Shown: one piece after another, positions 3,094-29,386 of the stretch
How the letters are laid out: each line of letters opens with the position of its first letter
Numbering within the stretch: the stretch's first letter is position 1
Source: a virus
DNA length: 31,681 nt
Direction: 5' to 3' (one strand)
Virus record (IMG/VR): IMGVR_UViG_3300021963_005729
Coordinates: 1 to 31,681 of that record
Notes under the pieces: generated by a model
Told to the model about the DNA's origin: nothing
Database searches by the model: none
Seen by the model: the letters and a program-made list of their open reading frames with translations, nothing else
Program-made: the position numbers and the translations under genes

Positions 3094-3094
3094 T

Positions 3095-4797: not shown

Positions 4798-4798
4798 A

Positions 4799-6968: not shown

Positions 6969-6972
6969 TTAA

Positions 6973-9954: not shown

Positions 9955-9955
9955 T

Positions 9956-12581: not shown

Positions 12582-13245
12582 AATACTAGAACTAGCAAGA
12601 GAAATCAGTGACTACACTATTTGTGGTGAAGGTAATGTATCAGTTAGAGTGGACGAGAATAGTTTTCTAATCAAAGCAAGTGGAACAAGTCTTCATACAC
12701 TCTCAGAAGAAGACTTAACTTTATGTAATACAAATGGTGCTCAAATAGAACTGTTGCATAAGAAACCAAGTATTGAAACATCTTTTCACGCCTGGATTAT
12801 GAAAACATTTCCAGACATTAATTTTATTGCTCACACACATCCACCACATACTACAAAAATTCTCTGCTCTGAACCAACTGTTCTTTATGATTTTGCAGAA
12901 CATCGTTGGTTTCCAGACCAGATTGTTAGAAATGGTATTAAATCCTGTGTAGTTCCTTATGCACCTCCTGGGGAAGCAATTTTAAAATTAGTTGAAAAAC
13001 ACGTCTTTAAATTTGTAGACAAAGAAGGATACTTCCCCAAGTTGATTCTTTTGCAAAATCATGGTATAATCACAGCATCTGCATCTAAAAAAGATTGTAC
13101 AGCTTCTACTTTAATGTGTGAAAAGTCTGCTGATATTTTTATTGGCGCAAAACTTTTAGGAGGAGTTAAGTTCTTAACTAAACAGGAAGTTGCTGATGTT
13201 GATACTTGTCCGAATGAAAATTATAGGAGAAATATGTATCAATGA
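12574..13245 (+). CDS. Class II aldolase/adducin family enzyme
   Basis: The 223-residue protein has GNVS at 20-23, PSIETSFH (66-72) with the likely catalytic E68, HTH at 87-89 and the third zinc ligand H163 in QNHGI. These are the metal and catalytic residues of fuculose/rhamnulose-phosphate aldolases and related epimerases. It acts on phosphorylated ketoses in the cytoplasm. Placed between a nucleotidyltransferase/GT61 pair and a HAD phosphatase, it may shape or shorten a sugar precursor. The adducin family is broad, so exact chemistry is open. Confidence 0.8.
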   Translation: MSEILELAREISDYTICGEGNVSVRVDENSFLIKASGTSLHTLSEEDLTLCNTNGAQIELLHKKPSIETSFHAWIMKTFPDINFIAHTHPPHTTKILCSEPTVLYDFAEHRWFPDQIVRNGIKSCVVPYAPPGEAILKLVEKHVFKFVDKEGYFPKLILLQNHGIITASASKKDCTASTLMCEKSADIFIGAKLLGGVKFLTKQEVADVDTCPNENYRRNMYQ

Positions 13246-13553
13246 AAGTCATTTATGTTGATATTGATGAAACCATTTGTCATCGTGAAACTTCTATTGA
13301 CTTTGGAACAACACATGATTATTCAAAAGCAAAACCTATTCGAGAGAATATAGAAAAAATTAATAAACTTTATGATGAAGGACATACAGTAGTTTATTGG
13401 ACTGCTCGTGGTTCTAGAAAACAAATTGATTGGACTGAACTTACTGCAAAACAACTTGCAGAATGGGGTGCCAAGTATCATGAATTAAGAGTAGATAAAC
13501 CATTCTATGACTTATTCATTGAAGACAAATCATTGAGGATTGAAGAACTGTGA
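13242..13553 (+). CDS. Small HAD-superfamily phosphatase
   Basis: The 103-residue protein is a minimal HAD core: nucleophile motif DIDET (D7, D9), motif II WTARGS (53-58, Thr54), K86 in DKPFYD and acidic motif IV near D90/D95. It has no cap domain, as in the small capsule-locus HAD proteins that dephosphorylate sugar phosphates. It overlaps the aldolase by four bases and its stop overlaps the GTG start of the next gene. It probably removes a phosphate from a sugar intermediate made nearby. Confidence 0.82.
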   Translation: MKVIYVDIDETICHRETSIDFGTTHDYSKAKPIRENIEKINKLYDEGHTVVYWTARGSRKQIDWTELTAKQLAEWGAKYHELRVDKPFYDLFIEDKSLRIEEL

Positions 13554-13990
13554 TTGTTATTTCTCATCGTGGTAATATTCGTGGACCAGTTCTTGATAAA
13601 GAAAATCGCCCAAGTTACATTGACTGTGCGATTGGAAATGGATATCATGTAGAGATTGATATTCGTTCAATTGGTGGTGAGTTGTGGTTGGGTCATGATG
13701 AACCACAGTACAAAATAGACCACAATTGGTTAGATAAACGTAGGAACTACTTGTGGTTACATTGTAAGAATCCTGAAGCGGCAAAAGAATGTTGGGCATA
13801 TCACTCATTTTGCCATACTTCTGATCCATTTACTTATACTTCAACTGGACAAATATGGTTGCATGATTTGTCTATGAGAATTGGTAGTAATTCGATTATT
13901 CCTTTAATTGATAAGGACGAAGTTGAAGCATTTGTGTCATTTGGTGAAACTCCTTTTGGTATCTGCACAGATTATCCACATTTATTTTAA
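13550..13990 (+). CDS. Compact GDPD-like phosphodiesterase
   Basis: The start codon is GTG at 13550, overlapping the HAD stop (GTGA). The 146-residue product has the glycerophosphodiesterase active-site elements: SHRG (H6, R7), VEIDI (E35, D37), and GHDEP (H49). It ends with GICTDYP, matching the usual C-terminal (I/V)xTDYP. Normal members are 230-260 residues, so this is a reduced barrel, similar to short versions in phage sugar gene sets. It could cleave a glycerophosphate or sugar-phosphodiester. Activity is inferred. Confidence 0.75.
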   Translation: MIVISHRGNIRGPVLDKENRPSYIDCAIGNGYHVEIDIRSIGGELWLGHDEPQYKIDHNWLDKRRNYLWLHCKNPEAAKECWAYHSFCHTSDPFTYTSTGQIWLHDLSMRIGSNSIIPLIDKDEVEAFVSFGETPFGICTDYPHLF

Positions 13991-13999
13991 AGTATTAAA

Positions 14000-14746
14000 A
14001 TGACACGTATTGCTCTCTGTTATTCGGGTAGACCTAGAAGTATTTTTGAGTGCTTTGATAATCATAAAGAACATTTTAGATTGGGTCAGAATAATGTTGA
14101 TGTTTTTGCTCATCTTTGGTTTGATGGTGATTTAGTAGGGTCTCAATTTAGATCTGATGTTGGACAAGGAACTTGGCCAGATTCTTCTATTAAAGAATGG
14201 ATAGACGAAAATTGGAAACCTAAAAAAATAACATATGAAAAACCGAGATCCTTTGAGTCTATGTTTGAAAAAAGTTGGAATCCTCAGTGGCCATTTGCAC
14301 ATCCAAAAGATAATCAAATTTCTATGTTCTATGGGATTGAAAAAGTAATAAATCTTAAAAAAGAATATGAGCAAGAGAATAGTTTTAAGTATGATTACGT
14401 TGTGCGTATGAGAACCGATTTAACGTTTTTAGATTCTCCAGGTGAATTTGAAAGATATGATCAGAATAATCTTCACGTCTTTAATGTTATCCCTGGTATG
14501 GATTGGATTGAAACTAAAGTTAAAGATTTTGCAATTCTTGATATCGTTGCTTGGGGAGGGTCTGAAGTTATGGATAAGTATGGATCAACATATTCTAATT
14601 TGAAAACAATCATTGATTCTGGATGTCCCACCTTTACACCAGATGCAATATTAGGTTATAATGCTGTTAGGATAAACAATTTAAAAGTCCAAAAACATCC
14701 TTGGAAGTTTAAAATTTTTGTAGGAAATACTATTTACCAAAATTAA
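14000..14746 (+). CDS. Putative glycosyltransferase-like protein, unassigned family
   Basis: The 248-residue protein starts with RIALCYSGRPRSIFECFDNH, a start I associate with proteins from phage and capsule clusters annotated as putative sugar transferases. It has YDYVVRMRTDLTFL near residue 130-145, resembling the DxD-bearing region of GT-A enzymes, and a late DIVAWGGSEVMDKY. No signal peptide is present. It is the only gene in the operon, with the following nadE, not overlapping its predecessor (9-base gap). Assignment is from these partial motifs and context. Confidence 0.5.
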   Translation: MTRIALCYSGRPRSIFECFDNHKEHFRLGQNNVDVFAHLWFDGDLVGSQFRSDVGQGTWPDSSIKEWIDENWKPKKITYEKPRSFESMFEKSWNPQWPFAHPKDNQISMFYGIEKVINLKKEYEQENSFKYDYVVRMRTDLTFLDSPGEFERYDQNNLHVFNVIPGMDWIETKVKDFAILDIVAWGGSEVMDKYGSTYSNLKTIIDSGCPTFTPDAILGYNAVRINNLKVQKHPWKFKIFVGNTIYQN

Positions 14747-14748
14747 TT

Positions 14749-15492
14749 ATGAATAGAATAACTGATTACACAAATCTAAAAAATAGAATAGTAACTTGGT
14801 TGAATAATTATGTTACGGAAAATTCATCCATTAAGTCTCTTGTAGTTGGAGTATCTGGAGGAATTGATTCTGCAGTAGTTTCTACTCTTGCAGCATCAAC
14901 TGGTTTACCAACTTATGTACTAGGAATGCCTATACATCAAAATTCAGAACAAGAAGATTTATCTGATTCGCATTTAGAATGGTTACAGACAAAATTTGAT
15001 AATGTAATTGTTCAAAAATATAACTTAACTGATGCATTTGAATCATTCAAATGTACTATGAGAGAATTTGGTACTAATACTCACGCTCTTGCTAATAGTC
15101 GTTCTCGCCTTAGAATGGTAACTCTTTATCAAGTTGCAGGATCTGTAAATGGAATTGTTGTGGGAACTGGCAATAAAGTTGAAGATTATGGTGTAGGGTT
15201 TTATACTAAATATGGTGACGGTGGGGTCGATATCGCTCCTATCGCAGATCTTTATAAGACTGAAGTATGGGAACTTGGAAAATTTTTGGGTATTGATCCA
15301 AGAATTATCAATGCTAAACCAACAGATGGTCTTTGGGATGATGGAAGAACCGATGAAGATCAACTCGGTGCTTCATACGCCGAACTTGAAGAGGCTATGG
15401 AAACTGGATCTGGTCCAGGTCTCAACTCTTTAATTAAGTTTGGTGAAATTAATAAACATAAAATGCAACCCATTCCTACATTCAAACTATGA
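14749..15492 (+). CDS. nadE: NH3-dependent NAD+ synthetase
   Basis: The 247-residue protein has the ATP-pyrophosphatase P-loop SGGIDSA at 36-42, RLRMVTLYQVA, VVGTGNKVEDYGVGF, and the GVDIAPIADLYKTEVWELGKFLG block typical of NadE, then PTDGLWDDGRTDEDQLG. It converts deamido-NAD and ammonia to NAD+. The length matches the small ammonia-dependent type and lacks a glutaminase domain. Within the sugar operon it could raise NAD+ for the epimerase, SDR and dehydrogenase encoded beside it. It overlaps the following dehydrogenase by four bases. Confidence 0.93.
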   Translation: MNRITDYTNLKNRIVTWLNNYVTENSSIKSLVVGVSGGIDSAVVSTLAASTGLPTYVLGMPIHQNSEQEDLSDSHLEWLQTKFDNVIVQKYNLTDAFESFKCTMREFGTNTHALANSRSRLRMVTLYQVAGSVNGIVVGTGNKVEDYGVGFYTKYGDGGVDIAPIADLYKTEVWELGKFLGIDPRIINAKPTDGLWDDGRTDEDQLGASYAELEEAMETGSGPGLNSLIKFGEINKHKMQPIPTFKL

Positions 15493-16646
15493 AAATTGGC
15501 GTAATCGGTGCTGGAAGACTAGGTATTTGTTTTGCTCTTCTTTGTGAAGCTGCTGGATATAATGTCTTTGTTTCGGATATTAGAGAAGACTATGTAAGTC
15601 AATTAAATCAAAGAAAAATTGACACGAATGAACCAGAAGTAGATACGTTATTGCGTGGAGCAACCAATTTCAGAGCAACCACTAGCAACAAAGAAGTTAT
15701 TGAAGAGTGTGATTTGATTTACACTTTAGTTTCGACACCTTCTCTTCCTGATGGATCTTATGATGTTTCTTCCGTTTGGGATGTTGTAAAGGATTTTTCT
15801 GATATCACAACTAAAAAATATTTCGTTGTTGGATGCACAGTTAATCCAGGAGACTGTGAAGAATTTAAAAAACAATTACCTAAGAATGTAAAAGTATTTT
15901 ATAATCCAGAATTTATTGCTCAGGGAACTATCATCAACGATTTACGTAATGCTGATATGGTTCTGCTTGGGTATGACAGTGAAATTGGAAGTGATAATCC
16001 CATTATTTCTGATATTCGTAAGTTGTATACAAAAATTCAAACTAGTCGAGCAATAGTTTGTGCTATGTCAACTACTGCTGCAGAAATTACAAAAATTGCA
16101 ATCAATTGTTTTTTGACAACTAAAATTAGTTATGCCAATATGCTGGGTGATGTTTTGGCAATGGCTGGATGTGGAGATGAGGTAATTGGTGTTCTCGGTG
16201 CAATTGGGGCAGATACACGAATTGGTAGAAAATATTTGAATTATGGATTAGGTTATGGTGGTCCCTGCCTTCCAAGAGATAATAGGGCTTTTGCTGCATT
16301 TGCCAAAAAACTTGGTATGATTTATAATCTCGGGTTTGTGGTAGATGGAATTAATAATGAACACGCAGAATTTGTTTGCAATTTTTATGAGAATTTAAAT
16401 AAAAAAGATCTGCCATTTTATTTTGATTACATTACTTACAAAAAAGGGACCGATATTTTAACAGAGAGTCAGCAGTACCGTCTTTGCACAGATCTTCTTG
16501 ATCGTGGACATACTGTTTATATTCATAATGATAAGAGAGTAATCAATCAAATTTATGATTCTCTCATTGCAAAATACGATTCTAGAGTTAGATTTGTTGA
16601 TAATAAAGAAAATATAACCGAACCAATTTTTGTGGTAAATTTATGA
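15489..16646 (+). CDS. UDP-glucose/GDP-mannose dehydrogenase family enzyme
   Basis: The 385-residue protein starts with the NAD loop GVIGAGRLG, has STPSLPDGSYD, FYNPEFIAQGT, K202 in EITKIAINCFLTTKISYANML, and the catalytic YGGPCLPRDN with C260. These are the signatures of UDP-glucose 6-dehydrogenase and GDP-mannose dehydrogenase, which oxidise an NDP-sugar to a uronic acid using two NAD+. The C-terminal third is less conserved but fits the sugar-binding domain. UDP-glucose is the likeliest substrate. It overlaps both neighbours by four bases. Confidence 0.85.
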   Translation: MKIGVIGAGRLGICFALLCEAAGYNVFVSDIREDYVSQLNQRKIDTNEPEVDTLLRGATNFRATTSNKEVIEECDLIYTLVSTPSLPDGSYDVSSVWDVVKDFSDITTKKYFVVGCTVNPGDCEEFKKQLPKNVKVFYNPEFIAQGTIINDLRNADMVLLGYDSEIGSDNPIISDIRKLYTKIQTSRAIVCAMSTTAAEITKIAINCFLTTKISYANMLGDVLAMAGCGDEVIGVLGAIGADTRIGRKYLNYGLGYGGPCLPRDNRAFAAFAKKLGMIYNLGFVVDGINNEHAEFVCNFYENLNKKDLPFYFDYITYKKGTDILTESQQYRLCTDLLDRGHTVYIHNDKRVINQIYDSLIAKYDSRVRFVDNKENITEPIFVVNL

Positions 16647-17512
16647 TTGGATATAATCGTTTAGGAACTAATGGACGTTTGGGTAACCAAATGTTTCAAT
16701 ATGCCGCCCTTAGAGGAATTGCTTCAAATAATAATTTGGATTGGTGCATTCCTCCAGAGGATACTCCAACTTATGCAAACTACGGTCTTTTTGATGCCTT
16801 TAAACTAAAAAACTTGAAATATACGGGACTTATTAATGGTCCAACACACGATGAACCTGGATTTGATTTTGACGAAAAACTCTTTAATAGTTGCCCAGAT
16901 AATATAAACATTGATGGATATCGTCAAACTGAAAAGTATTTCAAACATATTGAAGATTCTATTCGTGAAGACTATCAATTCAAAGATGAAATCTATGAAC
17001 CTTGCAAAGAGTTTATAGATCAGTTCAATGGAAACATTGTTCTGCTTCATATTCGTAGAGGAGACAATGTAGGTCGTCCAGACTGGTATCCAATTCCTAC
17101 TATTGAACATTATGAGTATCTTCTTAATAAACACTTTTCGGATAATCAACCTGTATTGATTTGTTCTGATGATCTTGATTGGGTAAGAGAACAAAAACTT
17201 TTTACTGGTGATAGATTTTACTTGTCTGAAACTAGAATTTATTATCCAAAAGAAGTGTTGAATGGCGCCGGCCAGATGGAAAAATCTTTGGTTCCATTTT
17301 ATGATCTGTGTTTGATGACATTGTGTAGTGATGCAATTATTGCTAACAGTTCATTATCTTGGTGGGGTGCTTGGTTACAAAAAAATCCAGACAAAAAAGT
17401 AATCGCACAGACTCCCTGGTTTGGTGAAAAACTTTCTTTTAATAATCTTAAAGATTTGATTCCAGAATCTTGGATTGTTGAACCAATCCCCGAAGAGAGA
17501 ATTCAACAATGA
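16643..17512 (+). CDS. GT11 (alpha-1,2-fucosyltransferase-like) glycosyltransferase, copy 1
   Basis: The 289-residue protein begins with the GT11 start GRLGNQMFQYAALRGIA (11-27) and has the nucleotide-binding motif HIRRGD (136-141), a CSDDLDWV segment, and IIANSSLSWWGAWL near the C-terminus. GT11 transfers L-fucose from GDP-L-fucose to form alpha-1,2 links. It is clearly paralogous to the gene at 18312-19124, with TEKYFKHIED blocks almost identical. As GDP-fucose synthesis genes are absent here, GDP-L-galactose is a plausible donor. Four-base overlaps on both sides. Confidence 0.9.
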   Translation: MIGYNRLGTNGRLGNQMFQYAALRGIASNNNLDWCIPPEDTPTYANYGLFDAFKLKNLKYTGLINGPTHDEPGFDFDEKLFNSCPDNINIDGYRQTEKYFKHIEDSIREDYQFKDEIYEPCKEFIDQFNGNIVLLHIRRGDNVGRPDWYPIPTIEHYEYLLNKHFSDNQPVLICSDDLDWVREQKLFTGDRFYLSETRIYYPKEVLNGAGQMEKSLVPFYDLCLMTLCSDAIIANSSLSWWGAWLQKNPDKKVIAQTPWFGEKLSFNNLKDLIPESWIVEPIPEERIQQ

Positions 17513-18315
17513 TGAACCTTACTTTTCTTATTCCTACCAGAATTGAAACGGAAGATAGATTGAGAAACATCATATCATCTGTTTCTTATCTGTTAAGACA
17601 TATACCAGCAAAAGTAATTGTTAAAGAAGTATCTAACCACCCTACATTTCAATTTAGAGCATTACCTGAGATTAGAAAATACGCAAATACAGATAACTTA
17701 ACTTTTTTGTATGAAGAGAATAATGAATCTTTATTTTGCAAAAGTAAAGTTTTAAATGATTTAATCATTGCTGCAGATACAAAAGTGGTAGCAAACTATG
17801 ATGCGGATTGTATTCTTCCAATCTCTTCATATCACCAAGCTTATAGTGCTATTAATGATGGGCAGGCAGATATAGTGTATCCATATGGTTGTGGTATCTA
17901 CCAGTGGAAAGCAGAATATAATATGCAAATCTATGAAGAGTTTGTAAATAAATTTGATATCTCTGTTTTAGATAGAAATAAGACATTATCAAATTCTACA
18001 ATTGGATGGACTCAATTCATCAATCGTCAAAAATATATTGATTGTTATATGATGAATGAAAATTTTGTATCTTGGGGGTGTGAAGATGATGAATTTTATT
18101 TTCGTATGAGCACACTAGGGAATAGAATTGTACGAATTGATAATTACGTCTATCATCTAGAACATAGTAGAACTCATAACTCTTGGTTCAGTAATCCAAA
18201 CTTTAATAATAACTGGCAACTTTGGAATACAATTAAGACATTTGACAGAGATCAACTTATACAGTATTATGAAAATCAAGACTATCTTAAAATACGTAGA
18301 GAACAATTGAAATGA
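17509..18315 (+). CDS. GT-A glycosyltransferase, GT2/GT27-like
   Basis: The 268-residue protein opens with a LTFLIPTRIET strand, has KVVANYDADCILP with DAD as the metal-binding DxD, and later VSWGCEDDEFYFRM, the W-G-x-E-D/D motif of N-acetylgalactosaminyl- or galactosyltransferase-like GT2 enzymes. It sits between two GT11 paralogues. This order suggests sugar addition in alternation within one repeating unit. It overlaps both by four bases. Donor unknown. Confidence 0.8.
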   Translation: MMNLTFLIPTRIETEDRLRNIISSVSYLLRHIPAKVIVKEVSNHPTFQFRALPEIRKYANTDNLTFLYEENNESLFCKSKVLNDLIIAADTKVVANYDADCILPISSYHQAYSAINDGQADIVYPYGCGIYQWKAEYNMQIYEEFVNKFDISVLDRNKTLSNSTIGWTQFINRQKYIDCYMMNENFVSWGCEDDEFYFRMSTLGNRIVRIDNYVYHLEHSRTHNSWFSNPNFNNNWQLWNTIKTFDRDQLIQYYENQDYLKIRREQLK

Positions 18316-19124
18316 TAGGATTTAATGCCTTAGGTAGAATGGGACGTTTGGCAAATCAAATGTTTCAGTATGCATCACTAAAAGGAATTTCTAAAAATAT
18401 TGGTGCAGATATTTGTATTCCAAATCATACTCAAGCAGTTGATGATGGAATTGGTAATATGTTAAGAACAGAGTTGTTCGATTCTTTTGATTTAAATGTA
18501 AATATTGGTATCTTGAATAATGGACACTCTCCTGTTGTTCAGGAAAGATTTTTTCATTTTGATGAAGAACTTTTTACTTTATGTCCAGATCACGTAAGCC
18601 TTCAAGGATATTTTCAAACCGAAAAATACTTTAAGCATATTGAAGATGAGATTCGTGAAGATTTTACCTTCAAGGATGAGATTCTTAATCCTTGCAGAGA
18701 AATGATTTCTTCTGTAGAAAATCCTATTGCTCTTCACGTTCGACGAACTGATTATGTTAAAAATAGCGATAATCATCCACCTTGTTCAATAGACTATTAT
18801 AAAAAAGCACTTGAGCATTTTGGTACTGATAGAAATGTGATTGTTTTCTCTGATGATCCTATTTGGTGTAATCAACAGGAACTATTTGCAGATGATCGCT
18901 TTTTGATTTCAGAAAACACAGATAATAGAGTTGATCTTTGTTTAATGTCTCTTTGTGATGATTTTATCATTGCCAACTCTACTTTTTCTTGGTGGGGAGC
19001 ATGGCTTTCTTCAAATAAGAATAAAAAAGTCATCTCTCCAATCCAGTGGTTTGGAACTGGATATACAAAAGATCACGATACTAAAGATTTGATTCCCGAT
19101 GACTGGACAAGAATTGCTGCTTGA
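18312..19124 (+). CDS. GT11 (alpha-1,2-fucosyltransferase-like) glycosyltransferase, copy 2
   Basis: The 270-residue paralogue of 16643-17512 has GRLANQMFQYASLKGIS (11-27), LHVRRTDYV (141-149, binding HVRRTD), SDDPIWC and IIANSTFSWWGAWL. It differs in the middle (about residues 40-80), where an acceptor-binding loop is expected, so the two copies may attach to different acceptors. It overlaps the next gene by 26 bases. Confidence 0.9.
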   Translation: MIGFNALGRMGRLANQMFQYASLKGISKNIGADICIPNHTQAVDDGIGNMLRTELFDSFDLNVNIGILNNGHSPVVQERFFHFDEELFTLCPDHVSLQGYFQTEKYFKHIEDEIREDFTFKDEILNPCREMISSVENPIALHVRRTDYVKNSDNHPPCSIDYYKKALEHFGTDRNVIVFSDDPIWCNQQELFADDRFLISENTDNRVDLCLMSLCDDFIIANSTFSWWGAWLSSNKNKKVISPIQWFGTGYTKDHDTKDLIPDDWTRIAA

Positions 19125-19920
19125 TAAAAACAAATCAGCGTATAAACTTAAAGGTATTCCTCATATTTACTGGTTAAATCTTGATGCTGATAAACATCGT
19201 CGAGATTATATGGAACTTCAATTTAAATATTGGGAAATTGAAAATCATACTCGTATTTCTGGATATGATGGTAGAGAAGACGATGTTTCTTCTCATTTAA
19301 AAGGCAGAATACCTGATGGTGTAAGTCAAAATGAATTGGGTTGCTGTATGTCTCATCTTAAAGCAATCAAACATTTCTATGAAGAAACCAATGATGATTA
19401 TTGTTTGATTTTAGAAGATGATGTTAACTTCAATACTGTTAAGCACTGGAACTTTACTTGGACAGAGTTCTTTTCTTTAGTCCCGTATGATTGGGATTGT
19501 GTGCAGTTAACTACGATTTGTACTGGAGATATACACGTTAAATTGCATTTAAAATTTATTAATGATTTTTCTGCTGCAATTTACCTGATTAGTAGGCATC
19601 ACGCTGCAAAAATGATGAAGCATCATATTCGTGGTGATAAATTTAAATTGGATAATGGTGTAAAACCAAGAGCAGTTTCTGAAGATACTATTTTAGAAAC
19701 AGGTAAAACATATACAATTCCATTGTTTCTTTATAATCTAGAAATGGGATCTGCTATACATCCAGAGCACCTTGGTATTTTTCATAAAGGCCCACACGAC
19801 GCATTGTTGAATTATTGGGAACAACAAGGAACATCAGTAAATATCCGTGATTATATGGATTACGATCCATATCTTGGAAGAATTGTAGAAAACTCTGCAG
19901 CGCAACAGCAAAATTCTTAA
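19099..19920 (+). CDS. GT25-family glycosyltransferase
   Basis: The 273-residue protein has IYWLNLDADKHRRDYMELQF (about 23-42), GCCMSHLKAIKHF, and the acidic LILEDDVNF motif, which together define the LPS-type GT25 family (galactosyl- or glucosyltransferases of the LpsA/Lex type). It is the last gene of the operon and ends 132 bases before the porin ATG. The ATG at 19099 overlaps the preceding gene by 26 bases; no later ATG precedes the conserved strand except one well inside the protein. Confidence 0.85.
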   Translation: MTGQELLLDKNKSAYKLKGIPHIYWLNLDADKHRRDYMELQFKYWEIENHTRISGYDGREDDVSSHLKGRIPDGVSQNELGCCMSHLKAIKHFYEETNDDYCLILEDDVNFNTVKHWNFTWTEFFSLVPYDWDCVQLTTICTGDIHVKLHLKFINDFSAAIYLISRHHAAKMMKHHIRGDKFKLDNGVKPRAVSEDTILETGKTYTIPLFLYNLEMGSAIHPEHLGIFHKGPHDALLNYWEQQGTSVNIRDYMDYDPYLGRIVENSAAQQQNS

Positions 19921-20021: not shown

Positions 20022-20052
20022 TTTGTCGTTTAGTACATACAAAAAACTTTTT

Positions 20053-21540
20053 ATGAAACTCAAACAACTGATGCTTGCACCTGTTGCTCTGGGAATGGTT
20101 GCTCCTGTTGCTGCGAATGCCGCAGATCTTAATATGGCAGCAGTCAACCAATACACTTCCTCGGAACAAGTCTCAAGCATCAAACAACTTTCTGATGTCC
20201 AACCTACCGATTGGGCTTATCAGGCACTCAGCAATCTGGTTGAGCGTTATGGTTGCGTTGCTGGTTATGAAAACGGAACTTATCTTGGTGGTAAGGCAAT
20301 GACCCGTTTTGAGGCAGCAGCACTTCTGAATGCTTGTCTGGATCGCGTAACTGAAGTCACCGATGAACTCCAGCGTCTTGCTACCGAGTTCGCTAACGAA
20401 CTTCAAGTTCTTCGTGGTCGTGTTGCTAAACTGGAGAAGCAAACCGCTGCTCTTCAGGCACAGCAGTTCTCTACCACTACGAAACTCAAAGGTGAAGCAA
20501 CCTTCGTTCTGGGTGGTGTAGAAGGTGCTCGTCTTGCTAACAACACCAATGTTGGTAACACTGCTTTCAACTATGACCTCCGCCTGAGTTTTGATACTTC
20601 CTTCACTGGTAAGGATCTGCTCAAGACCCGTCTGCGTTCTGGTAACTTCTCCTCGCAACCCTTTGGTTCTTCCTCGTCTCTGTTCAAACTGGACAAGGCA
20701 GAAAGCACCTCCAACGCTGTACAACTTGACCGTCTGTACTACAGCTTCCCTGCACTTACTAAGGGCGTGACTCTGACTGCTGGTGCTCTTGTTCGTAACA
20801 CCGAGATGGCTTGGGTTCCTACCGCATACAAGTCGGATGTTCTTGACTTCTTTGCTGTTGCTGGTGCTCCTGGTGTCTATAACAAGGCAACTGGTTCTGG
20901 TTTCGGTGCTCAGTGGGTACAGCCTACCAAGAAAGGTAAACCTGGTTTCGTCGCTGGCATCAACTACGTCGCTCAAAATGGTTCTGATAGCACCAAAGGA
21001 GAGTTCAATGCTGCTGGTGCTCTGAATACTCTTGCTCAAGTTGGTTACCGTGCTCCTCAGTATGGTATTGCATTCGGTTATCGTAATGGTACTGAAGGCA
21101 CTCGTATCCGTACCTTTAATGGTGTTGCTGGCAATAGTGGCACTCTTGCTGCTAACCAAACCTCCAATGGTTATTCTCTGAATGCTTACTGGCAACCCAA
21201 GACCTCTGGTATTATTCCTTCTGTGAGTGCTGCCTATGGTTGGAACTATGTAAGTGGCCCTGCAACTCCTAATGCTGCTACCAACTCTCAGACTTGGATG
21301 GCAGGTGTTCAGTGGAGTGATGTATTTGCCAAGGGTAATGCCGCTGGTTTTGCCATCGGTGCCCCCGGTAATGCCGAATCTCTCACAAAGGATGCTGTGA
21401 TGTGGGAAGCATTTTATCGTTACAAAGTTAGCGATGCAATCAGCGTAACCCCTGCTGTGTTCTATGTGTCTAACAACCAAGCTCTGAAGAATTCTTCTTC
21501 TAACTATGGTGGTGTGATTCAGACGACGTTCCGTTTCTGA
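20053..21540 (+). CDS. SLH-domain outer-membrane porin (cyanobacterial OprB/Som type)
   Basis: Read from ATG 20053 the protein has 495 residues: a signal peptide ending ANA at about 23, an S-layer-homology domain around 45-95 (VQPTDWAYQALSNLVERYG, MTRFEAAALLNACL), a coiled coil (about 95-140), then a long Gly/Asn/Tyr-rich beta-barrel ending in TTFRF. This is the domain order of cyanobacterial porins that anchor to peptidoglycan by SLH and form an outer-membrane channel. Codon use is more GC-rich and host-like than in the neighbouring phage genes, suggesting fairly recent transfer from Synechococcus. The adjacent pstS suggests a role in nutrient (phosphate) entry, but a decoy or receptor-masking role is possible. 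Confidence 0.9.
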   Translation: MKLKQLMLAPVALGMVAPVAANAADLNMAAVNQYTSSEQVSSIKQLSDVQPTDWAYQALSNLVERYGCVAGYENGTYLGGKAMTRFEAAALLNACLDRVTEVTDELQRLATEFANELQVLRGRVAKLEKQTAALQAQQFSTTTKLKGEATFVLGGVEGARLANNTNVGNTAFNYDLRLSFDTSFTGKDLLKTRLRSGNFSSQPFGSSSSLFKLDKAESTSNAVQLDRLYYSFPALTKGVTLTAGALVRNTEMAWVPTAYKSDVLDFFAVAGAPGVYNKATGSGFGAQWVQPTKKGKPGFVAGINYVAQNGSDSTKGEFNAAGALNTLAQVGYRAPQYGIAFGYRNGTEGTRIRTFNGVAGNSGTLAANQTSNGYSLNAYWQPKTSGIIPSVSAAYGWNYVSGPATPNAATNSQTWMAGVQWSDVFAKGNAAGFAIGAPGNAESLTKDAVMWEAFYRYKVSDAISVTPAVFYVSNNQALKNSSSNYGGVIQTTFRF

Positions 21541-21560
21541 TAATATCCACGATACCTTTA

Positions 21561-21584
21561 AACCTCCTTTCGGGGAGGTTTTTT
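21561..21584 (+). terminator. Terminator after the porin gene
   Basis: AACCTCC (21561-21567) pairs with GGAGGTT (21574-21580) around TTTCGG, followed by further T through 21584. It separates the porin from pstS, implying a separate promoter for pstS or partial read-through. Confidence 0.9.
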
Positions 21585-21598
21585 GGTGTTAGGACTTA

Positions 21599-21617
21599 TT
21601 TAACCTATTCTTAACTC
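21599..21617 (+). promoter_or_regulatory. Pho-box-like repeat upstream of pstS
   Basis: TTTAACCT (21599-21606) and CTTAACTC (21610-21617) are separated by three bases, giving the 11-bp period of cyanobacterial Pho boxes. The element ends only 8 bases before the ATG at 21626, leaving little room for a -10 and leader. It may therefore act from an unusual position, or be fortuitous. No clear -10 was found near it. Confidence 0.4.
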
Positions 21618-21625
21618 TAACAACA

Positions 21626-22603
21626 ATGAAACTCAAACACATTGCTACAATCGGTCTTGCTTTTGCTCCTGCTGCTGCATTTGCTGGACCTGCTATTAAT
21701 GGTGCTGGTGCTACCTTCCCCGCACCCATCTACCAGCGTTGGTTCGTTGATTATTCATCTACCACTGGTGAAAAAGTAAACTATCAGTCCGTTGGTTCTG
21801 GTGCTGGTATTCGTCAGTTCGTTGCTGGAACCGTAGACTTTGGTGCTTCTGATGAACCTATCAAGGCAAAAGAAGCCGCAAAGGTCAAGCGTGGTGTCGT
21901 TCAGATTCCTATGGTCGGTGGAACGATTGCGATTGCCTACAACAAACCTGGTTGTAAACTGAAACTGACTCAGAAACAAGTTGTTGATATCTTCTCTGGT
22001 CGTATCACGGACTGGAAGCAAGTTGGTTGTGCTGCTGGTTCTATGCGAGTTGTTCATCGTTCTGATGGTTCTGGAACTACTTATGCCTTCACCAACTCTC
22101 TGGATGCCTTTGGTGGTTGGACTGCTGGTGTTGGTAAGTCAATCAACTGGCCTACTGGTGTTGGTGCTAAGGGCAATGAAGGTGTTGCTGGAACTCTTTC
22201 CAACACTCCTGGTAGTATCGGTTATCTGAACACTGGATTTGTTCGTGCTAACAAACTCCAAGCTGCTGTACTCCAGAACAAGTCAGGCAAGTTCGTTGGA
22301 CCTTCTGCTGTAACTGGTGCCGCTGCTCTGAACGGAATCAAACTGGACCCTGTGACTCTTGCTGGTGAAGACCCCAATCCCGCAGGTGCTCAGGCATATC
22401 CTATCTCCACTCTGACTTGGATTCTTGCCTATAAGAATAGTTATGCTCCTGGTAAGGCACAAGCAGTCCGTGATGCGATTAACTATGCCCTGAGTTCCAA
22501 GGCACAATCGATTGCTGATGATCTAGGTTATGTTCCTCTTGCTGGTTCGATTCTGAATAAGTCCAGAATCAAAGTCAACCAAATTGGTATGGGTGAGAAG
22601 TGA
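21626..22603 (+). CDS. pstS: Phosphate ABC-transporter substrate-binding protein PstS
   Basis: The 325-residue protein has an N-terminal signal peptide ending AFA at about 20, without a lipobox cysteine, so it should be a free periplasmic protein. Phosphate-binding segments are visible: INGAGATFPAPIYQRWF, SVGSGAGIRQF, FGASDEP and RSDGSGTTYAF. It would hand phosphate to the host PstCAB transporter, helping phage DNA synthesis in P-poor water. pstS is a known cyanophage auxiliary gene. Its G/C content is raised like the porin's. The two genes form a phosphate-linked pair. Confidence 0.95.
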   Translation: MKLKHIATIGLAFAPAAAFAGPAINGAGATFPAPIYQRWFVDYSSTTGEKVNYQSVGSGAGIRQFVAGTVDFGASDEPIKAKEAAKVKRGVVQIPMVGGTIAIAYNKPGCKLKLTQKQVVDIFSGRITDWKQVGCAAGSMRVVHRSDGSGTTYAFTNSLDAFGGWTAGVGKSINWPTGVGAKGNEGVAGTLSNTPGSIGYLNTGFVRANKLQAAVLQNKSGKFVGPSAVTGAAALNGIKLDPVTLAGEDPNPAGAQAYPISTLTWILAYKNSYAPGKAQAVRDAINYALSSKAQSIADDLGYVPLAGSILNKSRIKVNQIGMGEK

Positions 22604-22629
22604 TTTAGTAAGTATTAATACTTACTAAA
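22604..22629 (+). repeat. Perfect 26-base palindrome after pstS
   Basis: Bases 22604-22616 (TTTAGTAAGTATT) are the exact reverse complement of 22617-22629, with no spacer. It follows the pstS stop directly and precedes the true terminator by 13 bases. It could be a protein-binding site, a cruciform, or an mRNA 3'-end hairpin. Confidence 0.85.
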
Positions 22630-22642
22630 GTCAGCATTTTCT

Positions 22643-22672
22643 AACAAGGGTGGGTTTTCACCCTTGTTTTTT
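22643..22672 (+). terminator. Terminator after pstS
   Basis: AACAAGGGTG (22643-22652) pairs perfectly with CACCCTTGTT (22659-22668) around GGTTTT, followed by T through 22672. The -35 of the next promoter lies within its right arm. Confidence 0.92.
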
Positions 22673-22692
22673 CTTTAGGTTTCCTATATAAT
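22664..22692 (+). promoter_or_regulatory. Promoter of the hli-petF unit
   Basis: TTGTTT (22664-22669) and TATAAT (22687-22692) are 17 bases apart, so the start would be near 22699, giving a leader of about 21 bases. The -35 is a weaker match and overlaps the terminator's T-run. Confidence 0.6.
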
Positions 22693-22719
22693 TGTGTAAC
22701 GTTTCTTAACAAAACTAAA

Positions 22720-22929
22720 ATGACTGTTACAACGAATGATCGTGGACAACAGAATATGTGGGCGATTGAGCCCCCTGTTTATATTTCTGACGAAGATGCA
22801 AAAAAGTATGGGATGAAAAGTTATGCTGAACGCGCTGAATCCGCTAATGGTCGCTGGGCTATGCTTGGGATCGTGGCTGGTTTTATCTCTTATGCAGCCA
22901 CAGGAAAACTCTTCTTCGGACTCTTCTGA
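22720..22929 (+). CDS. hli: High-light-inducible protein (Hli), 69 aa
   Basis: The C-terminal part carries the Hli/chlorophyll-binding motif AERAESANGRWAMLGIV (36-52) in a single membrane helix running to about residue 65. The N-terminal 35 residues are polar. Hli proteins bind chlorophyll near photosystem II and dissipate excess energy; cyanophages carry them to protect photosynthesis during infection. It is the first gene of a unit including petF and a second hli. Confidence 0.95.
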   Translation: MTVTTNDRGQQNMWAIEPPVYISDEDAKKYGMKSYAERAESANGRWAMLGIVAGFISYAATGKLFFGLF

Positions 22930-22938
22930 TACTTGACA

Positions 22939-23025
22939 ATGACTTCAATTATCTTTACAATTACTAGTGTTGCCTTTTTTGTTCTCCTGGCACACTCAGT
23001 TAATCAACTATCAGAAACTTATTAA
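22939..23025 (+). CDS. 28-residue single-helix membrane peptide
   Basis: ATG at 22939, nine bases after the hli stop, opens a frame of 28 codons ending TAA at 23025, three bases before petF. Residues 4-19 (IIFTITSVAFFVLLAH) form one hydrophobic helix. It looks like the tiny single-helix subunits of photosystems or cytochrome b6f, but matches none that I know (psbI/K/L/M/N/X/Y, petG/L/M/N and psaM do not fit by motif). Tight placement between photosynthesis genes supports a real gene. Confidence 0.6.
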   Translation: MTSIIFTITSVAFFVLLAHSVNQLSETY

Positions 23026-23608
<583 letters not shown>

Positions 23609-23612
<4 letters not shown>

Positions 23613-23716
23613 ACGAAAGAGCAGAACGTATTAACGGTTGGGCAGCAATGATTGGTATTATTGCTGCGATGGGTAGCTATGCTGCCACAGGTCAAATCAT
23701 TCCTGGAGTATGGTGA
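23609..23716 (+). CDS. hli: Short high-light-inducible protein (35 aa)
   Basis: ATG 23609 follows a good ribosome site (AAAGGAG) and ends TGA 23716. The 35 residues consist almost wholly of the Hli motif, ERAERINGWAAMIGIIAAMG, in one helix, then YAATGQIIPGVW. This is the short form of Hli typical of phages and marine Prochlorococcus. The stop overlaps the start of the peroxiredoxin gene by seven bases. It is easily missed because of its size. Confidence 0.9.
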
Positions 23717-24258
23717 ATATGGAAGTGAATATGCGTAAAGAAGGATATCAGGTCCCCCAGGTTCAATTTATTTTTCGTGAGTCTGGTGAATTTGTAACTC
23801 GTACAACTGCCGAACTTTTTGATGGTAAGCGTGTGGTTATTTTCAGTCTGCCTGGTGCATTCACTCCTACTTGCTCTGCTTATCAGTTGCCTGGATTTGA
23901 AGAGAAGTATGAAGATTTTATTGGACTCGGTATTGATGCTATTTACTGTATCTCTGTTAATGATGGCTTTGTGATGAATGCCTGGGCTCAGGACCAGAAC
24001 ATCGAAAAAGTAAAACTCATTCCAGACGGCAATGCTTACTTCACACGTTCTATGGGAATGCTTGTCAGTAAGTCTAACCTTGGTTTCGGTGATCGCTCTT
24101 GGCGTTATGCTGCGGTCGTGGACAATGGAGTCATCGAAAAGATATTCGTGGAAAACGGTCAGCGTGACAATGCGGACACCGACCCATATGAAGTATCGAC
24201 ACCTGAAAATGTTCTAGAATATGTGTCAGCAAATGTTAAAGTAGGTGCTACTGCCTGA
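23710..24258 (+). CDS. Peroxiredoxin (Prx5-like)
   Basis: The 182-residue protein (from ATG 23710; ATG 23719 or 23731 are alternatives) has IFSLPGAFTPTCSAYQLPGF with the peroxidatic C55 and T52, and DRSWRYAAVVDNG with a conserved arginine. This is the Prx5/redoxin subfamily, which reduces peroxides using glutaredoxin or thioredoxin. No second resolving Cys is obvious in the C-terminal half, so a one-Cys mechanism is likely. It would limit oxidative damage from photosynthesis late in infection. It is the last gene of the hli-petF unit before a terminator. Confidence 0.9.
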   Translation: MVNMEVNMRKEGYQVPQVQFIFRESGEFVTRTTAELFDGKRVVIFSLPGAFTPTCSAYQLPGFEEKYEDFIGLGIDAIYCISVNDGFVMNAWAQDQNIEKVKLIPDGNAYFTRSMGMLVSKSNLGFGDRSWRYAAVVDNGVIEKIFVENGQRDNADTDPYEVSTPENVLEYVSANVKVGATA

Positions 24259-25070: not shown

Positions 25071-25098
25071 GTATTGCGAACTCAATTTGGAAGCAGTT

Positions 25099-25731
25099 AT
25101 GGTAAATCCTAACAGATTTTATACCTATGCATATTTGCGTAAGGATAGAACTCCTTATTACATAGGTAAAGGAACGAGATACAGACTATTTGAAGGTAAT
25201 GGAAAACCTTGTCCTGTTCCATCAAAAGATAGAATATTAATACTTAAAAATAATCTAACAGAAGACGAAGCATTTAAGCACGAAACTTATATGATAAATG
25301 TGTTTGGTAGGAAGATTGATGGTGGAATTCTTTTGAATAAAACTTTTGGTGGTGAGGGTGCTTCTGGTAGAATTGTAAGTGAAGAGGTTAGAGGAAAAAT
25401 AAGATTATCTTTACTGGGTATGAAGCAAAGTTTAGATACTAGAAGGAAAAAAAGTATTTCTTTAATGGGAAAAAATAAAAATCCACTTACAGAAGAACAG
25501 AAACTTAAGATAAGTAATACTCTAAAAGGTAGAAAATTATCAAAAGAGAGGGTAGACAAAAGAACTCAATCTGTCTGTAAAAATACTTATGTTATAATAT
25601 CACCTGATGGAATTGAATATAATACTAATAACTTAAAAGAATTTCAAAGACAAAATAATTTAAAACATCTTTATGATGTGGTTTCAGGTAAAAGAAAACA
25701 AGATAAAGGTTGGATTTCTTTCAAATTATAA
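25099..25731 (+). CDS. GIY-YIG homing endonuclease
   Basis: Starting at ATG 25099 the protein has 210 residues. The N-terminal GIY-YIG domain is visible as FYTYAYLRKDRTPYYIGKG with a following R, and an E-bearing HETYMINVFG helix. The C-terminal part is basic, with repeated NUMOD3-type motifs (SEEVRGKIRLSLLG, TEEQKLKISNTLKGR) and a final NUMOD1-like helix-turn-helix (NLKEFQRQNNLKHLYDVVSG). This is the build of T4 Seg/I-TevI-type enzymes that cut DNA and spread their gene. The AT-rich body differs from its neighbours. The stop codon lies within the next late promoter. Confidence 0.9.
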   Translation: MVNPNRFYTYAYLRKDRTPYYIGKGTRYRLFEGNGKPCPVPSKDRILILKNNLTEDEAFKHETYMINVFGRKIDGGILLNKTFGGEGASGRIVSEEVRGKIRLSLLGMKQSLDTRRKKSISLMGKNKNPLTEEQKLKISNTLKGRKLSKERVDKRTQSVCKNTYVIISPDGIEYNTNNLKEFQRQNNLKHLYDVVSGKRKQDKGWISFKL

Positions 25732-26230: not shown

Positions 26231-26368
26231 ATGGAGAATGAAAACTCCTCGATTAATTTCAAGAGAAAGATCTTACAAAGAATCAAAGATCTTACAAATC
26301 ACGGAAAGCATTTAGACGCTTCCAAACTTTTCAACAAATACTTTGGAGAAAAACAATGGCAAGAGTAG
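26231..26368 (+). CDS. Small basic protein overlapping the lysozyme start (45 aa)
   Basis: ATG 26231 opens 45 codons ending TAG 26368, 13 bases into the lysozyme gene in another frame. The product is helical and Lys-rich (INFKRKILQRIKDLTNHG) and ends KLFNKYFGEKQWQE. The gap before the lysozyme is otherwise empty. A ribosome site (TTGGAGAAAA) for the lysozyme lies inside this frame. It is plausible as a real small gene but there is no homology evidence. Confidence 0.5.
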   Translation: MENENSSINFKRKILQRIKDLTNHGKHLDASKLFNKYFGEKQWQE

Positions 26369-27024
26369 ATTTACATAACTTCTTTCAGTTTTATGACGAA
26401 AGAAATCCTAACCATGTGAAGGCAGTTCAATGGTTAGAGGATAATCTCCCTGTTGAATATCTTGGTGATAATGTAGAGTGGGCAGAGATTTATCGCGGAA
26501 AAAAGACTAGTGCTGCACCAGCCCCTGCCGCTGCTGCAGCTCCTGTAACTGGTGGTGATGATGTCCCAATGATGGGCATTAAGTTGATTAAAGAGTTTGA
26601 AGGATGTCATCTAAAGGCATATCCTGACCCCCTATCTGGTGGTCTGCCAATCACAATTGGTTGGGGTTCTACCCGTAAGAAGGATGGTTCTGCATTTAAA
26701 CTAGGTGATCAAATCACTCAACAGGAGGCTGATGAATTATTAATCAGTCAGTGTAAGAACCAGTTTCTTCCTGCCCTTCGTAAAATCCCACACTGGAATG
26801 AAATGTCAGATGGAAAAAGAGGCGCTCTGCTCAGCTTTGCTTATAATCTTGGTGCCGGTTTTTACGGTGGTGCTAACTTTAATACTATTACTAAACGCCT
26901 GAAGAATAAAGAATGGGATTTGGTGCCCGATGCGCTTTATCTCTATCGCAATCCTGGTTCTAATGTAGAAGCAGGACTTGCTCGTAGAAGAAAAGCAGAA
27001 GGTGAATCTTGGAAAAAAGGTTAA
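26356..27024 (+). CDS. GH24 lysozyme with a shared N-terminal module
   Basis: The 222-residue protein begins with VDLHNFFQFYDERNPNHV (to about 45), the module also found in the peptidase at 24322. An Ala/Pro linker (51-67) follows, then a GH24 (T4-lysozyme) domain: FEGCHLKAYPD with E82 and D91, and PITIGWGS with T100, equivalent to the T4 Glu11-Asp20-Thr26 triad. Later GALLSFAYNLG and ARRRKAEGESW are typical of the fold. It should cut peptidoglycan. The shared module suggests anchoring to a virion part, such as the baseplate, rather than a free endolysin, though endolysin use is possible. Confidence 0.9.
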   Translation: MARVDLHNFFQFYDERNPNHVKAVQWLEDNLPVEYLGDNVEWAEIYRGKKTSAAPAPAAAAAPVTGGDDVPMMGIKLIKEFEGCHLKAYPDPLSGGLPITIGWGSTRKKDGSAFKLGDQITQQEADELLISQCKNQFLPALRKIPHWNEMSDGKRGALLSFAYNLGAGFYGGANFNTITKRLKNKEWDLVPDALYLYRNPGSNVEAGLARRRKAEGESWKKG

Positions 27025-27493: not shown

Positions 27494-27688
27494 ATGCCAC
27501 GCGAATGGAATACTCCAATTCGAGAACCTTGGAATCCTGTAATTAAAAAATGCCTTGATGCTGTTGATGAACACATCAAGGCATTTACCCGAACAGGAGA
27601 TGACTGGCACTTATCGCAAGCAGAAATATTAAGAAAGTATGTAAAAGATTTGAAGATCTGGATACATAAACAAGAGGGGAGAGAATGA
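27494..27688 (+). CDS. Small conserved phage protein (64 aa)
   Basis: This soluble, helical protein (WNPVIKKCLDAVDEHIKAFT, DWHLSQAEILRKYVKDLKIW) has a good ribosome site, GAGG, seven bases before ATG 27494. The helical pair looks like a simple dimer or binding module. Its stop overlaps the start of the exported protein at 27685 by four bases. I do not recognise a family. Confidence 0.65.
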   Translation: MPREWNTPIREPWNPVIKKCLDAVDEHIKAFTRTGDDWHLSQAEILRKYVKDLKIWIHKQEGRE

Positions 27689-28431
27689 AGAAACTCTTTG
27701 CAGCATTTGGTTTATCATTAACTCTGGCATTTCCTGCATTTGCTAGTTCATTAGAAAAGAAACAACCGACAGTTCCTGCATACAGCCTTGCAGCGATGGG
27801 TTGTATGATTCTTCTAGAATGCACCGAAGGAGTCCAGCAACTCGCACCAGACTCTTCTGTGCTTTTAGATAAGTCTTTTGATCCATTCCGAGAAGAAATC
27901 AAAAGTATTTTAACTGCCCTCAATAAAGTCAAAGTTTCTGTATATCTAGCACCACCAAGATATTTCACACCGAGAACAGTAGGACTTTATAAACCAAAGT
28001 ATAATCGTTTCTTTGTCAATGAAGAACTCTTAAAGGATCCTAGAGAATTCTTAGGAACGATGAGACACGAAGGATGGCACGTCGTTCAGGATTGTATGGG
28101 TGGTGGAATACAAACTTCCTTTATGGCACAGGTTCATCAGGACTCTGAAATTCCTGCTTGGGTGATGAAGAATACAAGACTTGCTTATGAGTCTATGGGA
28201 ATGAGTCGTGCCGTGCCTTGGGAAGCAGATGCTAACTGGGCAGAAGAACAGTCTGGACAAACTACCAAACACCTTGAGATGTGCGCTAAGGGGCCTTTGT
28301 GGGAACAAGTTCGTCCTACACCAATGACGGCAGAGTGGTTGATTGGATGTGGATGGATGAAACCACAAGATGGATATAAAGAATATACGCCAAATAAAAA
28401 GTCAGATTATTGTGTAGAAGGTAAGTTCTGA
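27685..28431 (+). CDS. Exported HExxH metalloprotease-like protein
   Basis: The 248-residue protein starts with a signal peptide (KKLFAAFGLSLTLAFPAFA, cleavage after residue 20). Residues 127-136 read RHEGWHVVQD, containing the zinc motif HEGWH (H128, E129, H132). E180 in PWEADANWAE, 48 residues later, could be the third ligand, as in gluzincins. Several Cys (40, 46, 137 and more) suggest disulfides in the periplasm. It could degrade envelope proteins during lysis or entry. The ATG overlaps the previous gene by four bases. Confidence 0.7.
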   Translation: MKKLFAAFGLSLTLAFPAFASSLEKKQPTVPAYSLAAMGCMILLECTEGVQQLAPDSSVLLDKSFDPFREEIKSILTALNKVKVSVYLAPPRYFTPRTVGLYKPKYNRFFVNEELLKDPREFLGTMRHEGWHVVQDCMGGGIQTSFMAQVHQDSEIPAWVMKNTRLAYESMGMSRAVPWEADANWAEEQSGQTTKHLEMCAKGPLWEQVRPTPMTAEWLIGCGWMKPQDGYKEYTPNKKSDYCVEGKF

Positions 28432-28559
28432 TGCCGCACGATTTTCCTTATGGTGTTGTAATAATCTTATCTTGTGGTCTTGCATTTACTGGTTATATAA
28501 TTTACTACATAATGAAGTTGGCGTTTGAGGAAATGAAAGATGAAAAAGAAGAAAAATAA
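28431..28559 (+). CDS. 42-residue single-helix membrane protein
   Basis: ATG 28431 overlaps the preceding stop by one base (TGATG), ending TAA 28559. Residues 7-28 ([20 protein letters not shown]) make one membrane helix, followed by an acidic/Lys tail. The next gene starts inside it in another frame at 28540. It might be a spanin-like or small envelope protein. No family recognised. Confidence 0.6.
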
Positions 28560-28746
28560 AGAACAACAAGAAGAAGTGGTATTTGAAGGTACTTTAGATT
28601 CTCTTCGTAGAGGAGATAAAGATGTAAAAGAAGTTTCATCAGGATTTGAATGTGGTGTTCAATGTGATGGATTTTCTGATTGGCAAATAGGTGACAGAAT
28701 TGAAATATATAAAACAGTTCCAAAGAAAAGAACTTTGAAAAAATGA
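28540..28746 (+). CDS. Fragment homologous to the C-terminus of translation initiation factor IF2
   Basis: The 68-residue protein starts with a Lys-rich leader (1-12) and then follows bacterial IF2 to its end: [12 protein letters not shown] (13-24), DVKEV (28-32), SGFECG (34-39), a [13 protein letters not shown] stretch (45-57) and KKRTL (62-66). In full IF2 the last part belongs to domain C2, which holds the formyl-methionine end of initiator tRNA; the cysteine in ECG is conserved there. The GTPase and other domains are missing, as are the first strands of C2. It could bind initiator tRNA or the host IF2/ribosome and shift translation. Similarity to cyanobacterial IF2 suggests a host origin. 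Confidence 0.8.
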
Positions 28747-28955
28747 AAAATTTGGCAATCATTCTGTCAGCGACGAGTCTGGCAATTAGTGGAGCACTTT
28801 GTTACGGTGCTTATGTAACCTATCAAAAAGCACAAAAGATTCTTGACAATCCAGAAGAGTTTGTTGGTGCTGTTGTAGAGAAGCAAGTCAATAAAGCATT
28901 TGAGAAACTACCTATTCCAAAACTAAATACCAAAGAGTTTAAGTTACCTTTCTAA
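28743..28955 (+). CDS. Small signal-anchored protein (70 aa)
   Basis: The N-terminal 25 residues ([21 protein letters not shown]) form a signal anchor or membrane helix; the rest is polar with a long helix ([20 protein letters not shown]) and a Pro-rich end. It overlaps the previous gene by four bases and the nuclease start by one. Predicted to stick into the periplasm. Function unknown. Confidence 0.65.
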
Positions 28956-29386
28956 TGGAAAAAGATCCATATATTTACAGAATCAAACAAGTTCTAAAAG
29001 TTGTAGATGGTGACACTATTGATGCTGCTATTGATTTGGGGTTTGATATCTCCCTTACTAAGCGAATTCGTCTTGCTGGTGTCGATACCCCGGAGAGTAG
29101 AACAACTGATGCAAATGAAAAGAAACTTGGGCTTGAAGTTAAAGAGTGGCTTAAAAAGAAATTAGAAGGGCAGACTGATGTTATTGTAAAGACTGAACTT
29201 CCAGACTCTACTGAAAAGTATGGTAGAATTCTGGGACATTTGTTTATCGGTGATAAAGAAGTATCAGCAGTTAATAAAAAGAAATCGGTCAATCAAATGA
29301 TGATTGACGAAGGTTATGCTTGGGAATATGATGGCGGCACTAAGAAAAAAGATTTTGCTTTACTAGAATCAAAAAGACAAAAGTAA
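28955..29386 (+). CDS. Staphylococcal-nuclease-like (TNase) protein
   Basis: The 143-residue protein carries the TNase motifs: VVDGDTI (D20), RIRLAGVDTPES (R39, E47) and KYGRILGHL (R92), matching the Asp21, Arg35, Glu43 and Arg87 catalytic set. It has no signal peptide, so it may act in the host cytoplasm or be released at lysis. It could help degrade host DNA or RNA. Its stop abuts the convergent stop of the minus-strand gene with no bases between. Confidence 0.85.
   Translation: MEKDPYIYRIKQVLKVVDGDTIDAAIDLGFDISLTKRIRLAGVDTPESRTTDANEKKLGLEVKEWLKKKLEGQTDVIVKTELPDSTEKYGRILGHLFIGDKEVSAVNKKKSVNQMMIDEGYAWEYDGGTKKKDFALLESKRQK

Follow-up and report, generated by a model that had tools for sequence, protein, structure and literature searches.

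A conserved small cyanophage gene encoding the C-terminal half of the IF2 C2 domain

Can half of a single domain of an essential translation factor live in a phage as a gene of its own, and if so, what might it do there? This question is raised by a stand-alone open reading frame, here called IF2c, in a 31,681-base virus record, a T4-like cyanophage contig that we refer to in its entirety as the window. IF2c lies within a run of overlapping small genes, of which the relevant features, together with the nearby lysozyme, are as follows.

26356-27024: phage lysozyme (PF00959).
28431..28559, plus strand: gene A, 42 aa, PHROG 25130/814, overlapping IF2c by 20 nt; its product is presumably of membrane type, as judged by eye.
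28527..28532, plus strand: Shine-Dalgarno-like GAGGAA inside gene A, putative in its role.
28540..28746, plus strand: IF2c, 68 aa, a stand-alone ORF holding the C-terminal half of the IF2 C2 domain (read as strands 4-6 with loops L4 and L5) and a basic N-terminal leader.
28743..28955, plus strand: gene C, a small phage protein, whose start overlaps the IF2c stop as ATGA.
28955..29386, plus strand: SNase/thermonuclease-type gene (PF00565, E 1.5e-15), the last of the overlapping run.

Judged by its sequence, IF2c shares descent with the C-terminus of IF2. Residues 9-66 matched the NCBIfam IF-2 model TIGR00487 at positions 529-586 of 587 (E 4.8e-16), a significant profile match with a score of 58.6 bits, which lies below the curated full-protein cut-off of 424.4. 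All 16 phmmer matches of IF2c to PDB sequences at E<=1 were IF-2 (best 2.3e-10), located at or near the C-terminal end of the factor (residues 43-92 of 99 in 1d1n, the G. stearothermophilus IF2 C2 domain, aligned gaplessly; 835-889 of 890 in E. coli), and a profile built from the phage family gave 16 matches at E<=10, again IF-2 in every case (best 6e-14). Neither Pfam nor PHROGs returned a match for IF2c, a result that is uninformative because the protein is a 68-aa fragment. Against the cyanobacterial IF2 tails of loci L026, L028 and L033, IF2c was identical at 37, 36 and 37 of 56 positions, while the largest values among 100,000 shuffles for each were 16, 15 and 14; the likeness thus far exceeds an effect of composition. 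The sequence-only reading of this locus had described a match to the IF2 C-terminal end with a conserved ECG, an added basic leader and no GTPase, and this description holds. The ECG is present in 6/6 phage and 33/33 host sequences. The leader is real and variable in length (12 residues in the window, 6 in the relative L007), occupying in the alignment the place of the host IF2 stretch that directly precedes strand 4, and the protein is basic, with a pI of 8.95-9.43 in three sequences. The GTPase (G2) domain is absent, since the 68 residues encode only the C-terminal part of IF2. Two candidate readings were rejected: a match in contig G004, considered as an extension of IF2c, crosses two stops, and an antisense gene at 28505-28762 (minus strand) was discarded when the same antisense frame proved to be open in only 2/6 sequences.

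IF2c is carried in a phage genome. Three scans of IMG/VR found the same six contigs carrying it, and a fourth scan with the protein of L007 recovered four of them. In one contig (L002) the gene DNA is identical to that of the window, and this copy was excluded from alignment, tree and pN/pS calculation; including that of the window there are six different phage sequences, the other five being 77-92% identical to the window's. In 6/6 relatives IF2c is adjoined by gene A, gene C or the SNase gene, or by more than one of them, and in two (L004, L005) the gene behind it differs from gene C. Of 460 phage records with a relative of the SNase gene, 369 bear the name Synechococcus, Prochlorococcus or Cyanophage; one IF2c contig (G005, locus L006) encodes a phage DNA polymerase, a replicative helicase and a ribonucleotide reductase, and L007 contains an ORF that we take, by eye, to be PsbA. 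For gene C, the GenBank phages yielded two relatives, in Synechococcus phages DSL-LC02 and DSL-LC03, both listed as Kyanoviridae and described in PMC10611076 as metagenome-assembled from a lake, with hosts predicted as Cyanobiaceae. Neither of these complete genomes contains IF2c anywhere (0/2), as searched with a profile that recovers all 6 carriers. Peptide deformylase, whose presence might have pointed to a common fMet function, turned up in 0/8 records, of which 6 are fragments, and the control was positive in 10/14 genomes.

The remainder of the window offers several observations in their own right. A long cluster at 2026-19920, as judged by eye from the listed ORFs, contains sugar-nucleotide, glycosyltransferase-like and methyltransferase-like genes, followed at 20023-24258 by a host-like run comprising an OprB porin with an SLH domain, a PstS-like binding protein, a 2Fe-2S ferredoxin and a redoxin; relatives of the porin, the binding protein and the redoxin occur in L004. 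GIY-YIG-like ORFs, likewise recognized by eye, lie at different places in the window (25087-25731) and in L007 (5438-6106), are 36% identical and are possibly homing endonucleases. Directly ahead of gene A, at 27685-28431, is a 248-aa protein that looks secreted and has an HExxH motif (HEGWH), which belongs to PHROG 591, a family whose function is not known, and which had no match in Pfam. The T4-type late promoter pattern TATAAATA shows no enrichment, with 4 matches against 2.8 expected, in no case near IF2c.

How IF2c sits among its neighbours is most clearly seen by comparison with related sites that lack it. After the tail of gene A, these empty sites have a GAGGA-type sequence, with the gene C start codon next. 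In the window the left flank is the same but leads into the IF2c start codon, and gene C starts 203 nt further on. The joined flanks of the window align with many empty sites without gaps (at best 0.892 over 250 nt, in L137), and the 203-nt insertion is thus seamless, from start codon to start codon. The start codons of IF2c and gene C both read ATGAAAAA, a likeness that we do not press, AT-rich starts being common. Among the gene-C loci examined (the best 80 of 470, with 53 nt of upstream sequence in L139 and 240 nt in L091), gene C directly follows gene A in most, and IF2c is present in 1/80, namely the L002 contig itself; L139 is uninformative on this point because of its short upstream sequence. 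Other genes can take the same position, a small cargo site ahead of gene C: in 14/80 (L076, L081, L093 and 11 more) a frame starting 593 nt upstream encodes a class 3 lipase-like protein of about 199 aa, and in 2/80 (L082, L083) there is a lysine-rich 45-aa frame. Lipase-like gene, 45-aa frame and IF2c all overlap gene C at their ends by ATGA. In L007 IF2c stands side by side with a class 3 lipase gene (2202-2801), presumably a relative of the lipase-like frame, as recognized from the first residues.

Variable cargo slots often hold counter-defence genes, and a rare gene in such a slot might be a decoy or antitoxin-like protein that mimics the IF2 tail and occupies a host defence factor sensing or damaging initiation. 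We know of no defence system that targets the IF2 tail, however, and PADLOC gave no match for IF2c or three neighbours, and we regard this explanation as quite improbable.

Of 292 genomes of the cyanobacterial phylum, 291 contain an IF2 tail match at E<=0.001, one each; the frames holding the 30 best matches measure 984-1192 aa, and many belong to genomes of 1.6-2.4 Mb, a size that would fit picocyanobacteria. Among the matches listed, every cyanobacterial IF2 tail is part of an open frame of at least 636 aa, and none of the matches listed from these 292 genomes is a stand-alone tail. The genomes were reached via the ferredoxin gene, as patterns from the phage profile were phage-specific and found none. 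Host sequences for comparison came from 34 loci (L019-L052, the 30 best and four others), 33 of which entered the tree, L039 having been missed by a motif filter, and are thus biased towards similarity. In GenBank, 20 phage records matched IF2c at E<=1, all at less than 60% identity and 3/20 with an IF-2 annotation. Six of the 20 (H1, H6, H11, H14, H18, H20) were examined and rejected as phage IF2c: in three, the match is the end of an 802-948 aa frame with the GTPase motif GHVDHGKT, in the other three the infB frame runs off the end of the record, and these unverified records look like, and probably are, host infB DNA.

A tree built from 39 tails and 56 columns places the six phage sequences together on one side of a branch with a support of 100/100, beside the 33 cyanobacterial tails. 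The stem of this clade is long (0.47 changes per column), and the donor cannot be placed more finely because the columns are few and the bootstrap is unsettled. Across the 15 pairs of phage sequences pN/pS ranges from 0.073 to 0.236, values by which phage IF2c is under purifying selection, and 16 of the 18 positions that never vary among the 33 hosts are likewise kept by every phage sequence, including R24, E37, C38 and G39; the two exceptions are L22, which is Ile in one phage, and K26, replaced in all six. IF2c therefore looks like a real gene rather than an accident of assembly. A truncated domain in a contig fragment might suggest decay or an assembly-derived piece without function, but IF2c is intact in six different sequences with low pN/pS, is preceded by a Shine-Dalgarno-like sequence, is coupled to its neighbours by overlaps and is adjoined by gene A, gene C or an SNase relative in every carrier, and we find this the least credible of all explanations considered, close to negligible.

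What this conserved protein could do depends on which parts of the C2 domain it retains. Papers and sequence together suggest that its elements follow in the order strand 4, L4, strand 5, L5, strand 6, and IF2c encodes about half, the C-terminal half, of the six-stranded C2 barrel. According to PMC4236685, the surface of IF2 C2 facing the tRNA end is made up of strands 1, 2 and 5 and loops L1 and L4; strands 1 and 2 and loop L1 are absent from IF2c. The fMet pocket of G. stearothermophilus IF2 is given in PMC4611024 as R654, Q655, F657, G667 and E713, which fits the residues R, Q, F and G at positions 12, 13, 15 and 25 of 1d1n and E at position 71. As the alignment starts only at 1d1n residue 43, IF2c has 1/5 of the pocket residues (E37 = E713). 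For E. coli IF2, a preprint (PMC13345285) reports that Arg846 envelops A76 and that F804 and F848 flank fMet, and PMC8709274 reports lower fMet-tRNA affinity for R847G. E. coli residues 835-889 correspond to IF2c 12-66, so that R23 and R24 are the equivalents of R846 and R847, and these are Arg in 6/6 phage sequences; Phe804 lies upstream of the aligned part and is hence missing, and G25 replaces F848. The latter substitution is on its own weak evidence, because just 2/33 cyanobacterial tails have Phe at this place.

The sequence-only reading had also proposed that the fragment could compete for initiator tRNA. Homology to C2 and the kept equivalents of E713 and Arg846/Arg847 speak for competition for free fMet-tRNA at the ordinary pocket, but strands 1-3, loop L1, R654, Q655, F657, G667 and F804 are not encoded; with four of five pocket residues, strands 1 and 2 and L1 missing, this part of the proposal is not supported as it was worded, and we rate such competition as very unlikely, below even the decoy. 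The missing half was not found elsewhere either: a complete host C2 query against 7 phage contigs, which are fragments, recovered only the known IF2c piece and no partner half.

The changes specific to the phages include some in L4, which reads R-R-G-D/N-K-D in phages vs K/R-R-x-K-D/E-D in hosts. Position 26, which adjoins the tRNA-contacting arginines, is Lys in 33/33 hosts and Asp or Asn in 6/6 phages, and residue 27 is Lys in phages vs Asp or Glu in hosts. Altogether, phages and the 33 host tails have no residue in common at six positions (26, 27, 41, 56, 59, 67), among them position 56, where Ala, Val, Thr or Ser in hosts becomes Ile, and position 41, where Gly, Ala or Ser becomes Gln, Arg or Lys. 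Such positions may look as if the protein had been repacked after the loss of strands 1-3, and together with the long stem branch and the adjoining lysozyme and nuclease genes they are consistent with exaptation, in which the three strands would pair with those of another copy, giving a new small barrel with a role unrelated to initiation, for instance in RNA binding or as an accessory of the virion or lysis region. Yet R24, E37, C38 and G39 are invariant in IF2 and in the phages, and a pure scaffold needs neither the arginine nor the glutamate; moreover, a dimer found no support in either of two AlphaFold models, both poor (pLDDT 56.2 and 52.1, with 6 close sequences as rows) and of too low a confidence to serve in a fold search. 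We hold exaptation to be a serious, if tentative, contender.

The reading that we favour, at a rough probability of 0.36, is that IF2c may derive from the host and engage the initiation machinery, either as an oligomer or together with a partner; most weight thus goes to an effect on initiation, nearly as much to exaptation and less to the rest. A cyanophage lineage would have captured the last ~56 codons of a cyanobacterial infB (C2 strands 4-6), and the piece would have become an independent small gene in the cargo slot ahead of gene C, kept there by selection. The protein, once produced, would act via the retained side of L4 and strand 5, with the equivalents of Arg846, Arg847 and Glu713; the kept arginines, E37 and the ECG suggest that the tRNA-facing side still matters, while the missing half of the pocket and the altered L4 suggest that any fMet binding would differ from that of IF2. 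As half of the barrel is missing and a half-barrel of three strands would have an exposed core, the protein would probably need a dimer or a partner. In favour of an initiation role are the IF-2 match reaching the C-terminus, the 16/18 host-invariant positions kept and the low pN/pS; against it stand the loss of 4/5 pocket residues and of Phe804, the change at K26, the poor AlphaFold models and the rarity of the gene. An action on initiation is possible. A more specific proposal, which we consider rather doubtful, is that the half-barrel could be a separate regulator taking over initiation in infected cyanobacteria, paired with itself or docked on IF2 or the initiator tRNA end, with G-D/N-K-D forming an altered contact. 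IF2c might instead be a positive factor that promotes the initiation of phage mRNAs in late infection, for instance if it stabilized initiator tRNA together with host IF2. The retained arginines and the basic pI would suit this role, but the protein has neither a G domain nor any other IF2 domain and lacks half of the pocket, and we think it unlikely.

Whole translation genes borrowed by phages are known, and IF2c is only half a domain, yet conserved. A half-domain severed within a barrel and maintained by selection would demonstrate that part of an essential factor can persist as an independent gene, would offer a 68-residue handle on how phages alter the start of translation in cyanobacteria, and raises the question of whether three strands of a translational barrel can fold and work alone, and with it that of the origin of such barrels. 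The sequence-only reading knew of no described phage IF2 fragment, and we too found none from a phage or cyanophage among the open-access papers listed, although this is weak evidence of novelty.

The closest known counterpart of IF2c is the C2 domain (domain IV) of bacterial IF2 itself, as in 1d1n and cyanobacterial IF2, to whose C-terminal half it corresponds with up to 37/56 identical residues and with the equivalents of R846, R847 and E713 kept; unlike bacterial IF2, it comes without the other domains and without the first half of C2, has a phage-specific G-D/N-K-D in L4 and is an independent gene. Among phage genes, PMC6375957 describes ribosomal proteins (bS21, bL12, bL9 and HPF), of which bS21 enters ribosomes and also touches initiation. 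These resemble IF2c as host-derived translation components under purifying selection, but they are ribosomal proteins or domains, whereas IF2c is half of one factor domain. The same source reports T7-like kinases that phosphorylate IF1-IF3, which would share with IF2c, in the favoured initiation reading, a phage action on initiation factors, although exerted by enzymatic modification rather than by a piece of a factor. Some jumbo phages encode IF3 (PMC7824862, PMC11242549), likewise a phage-borne initiation factor gene, but for another factor, annotated as an IF3 gene and not a fragment, and in other phages and hosts. Set beside these systems, IF2c suggests a half-domain case of the host translation genes that phages carry.
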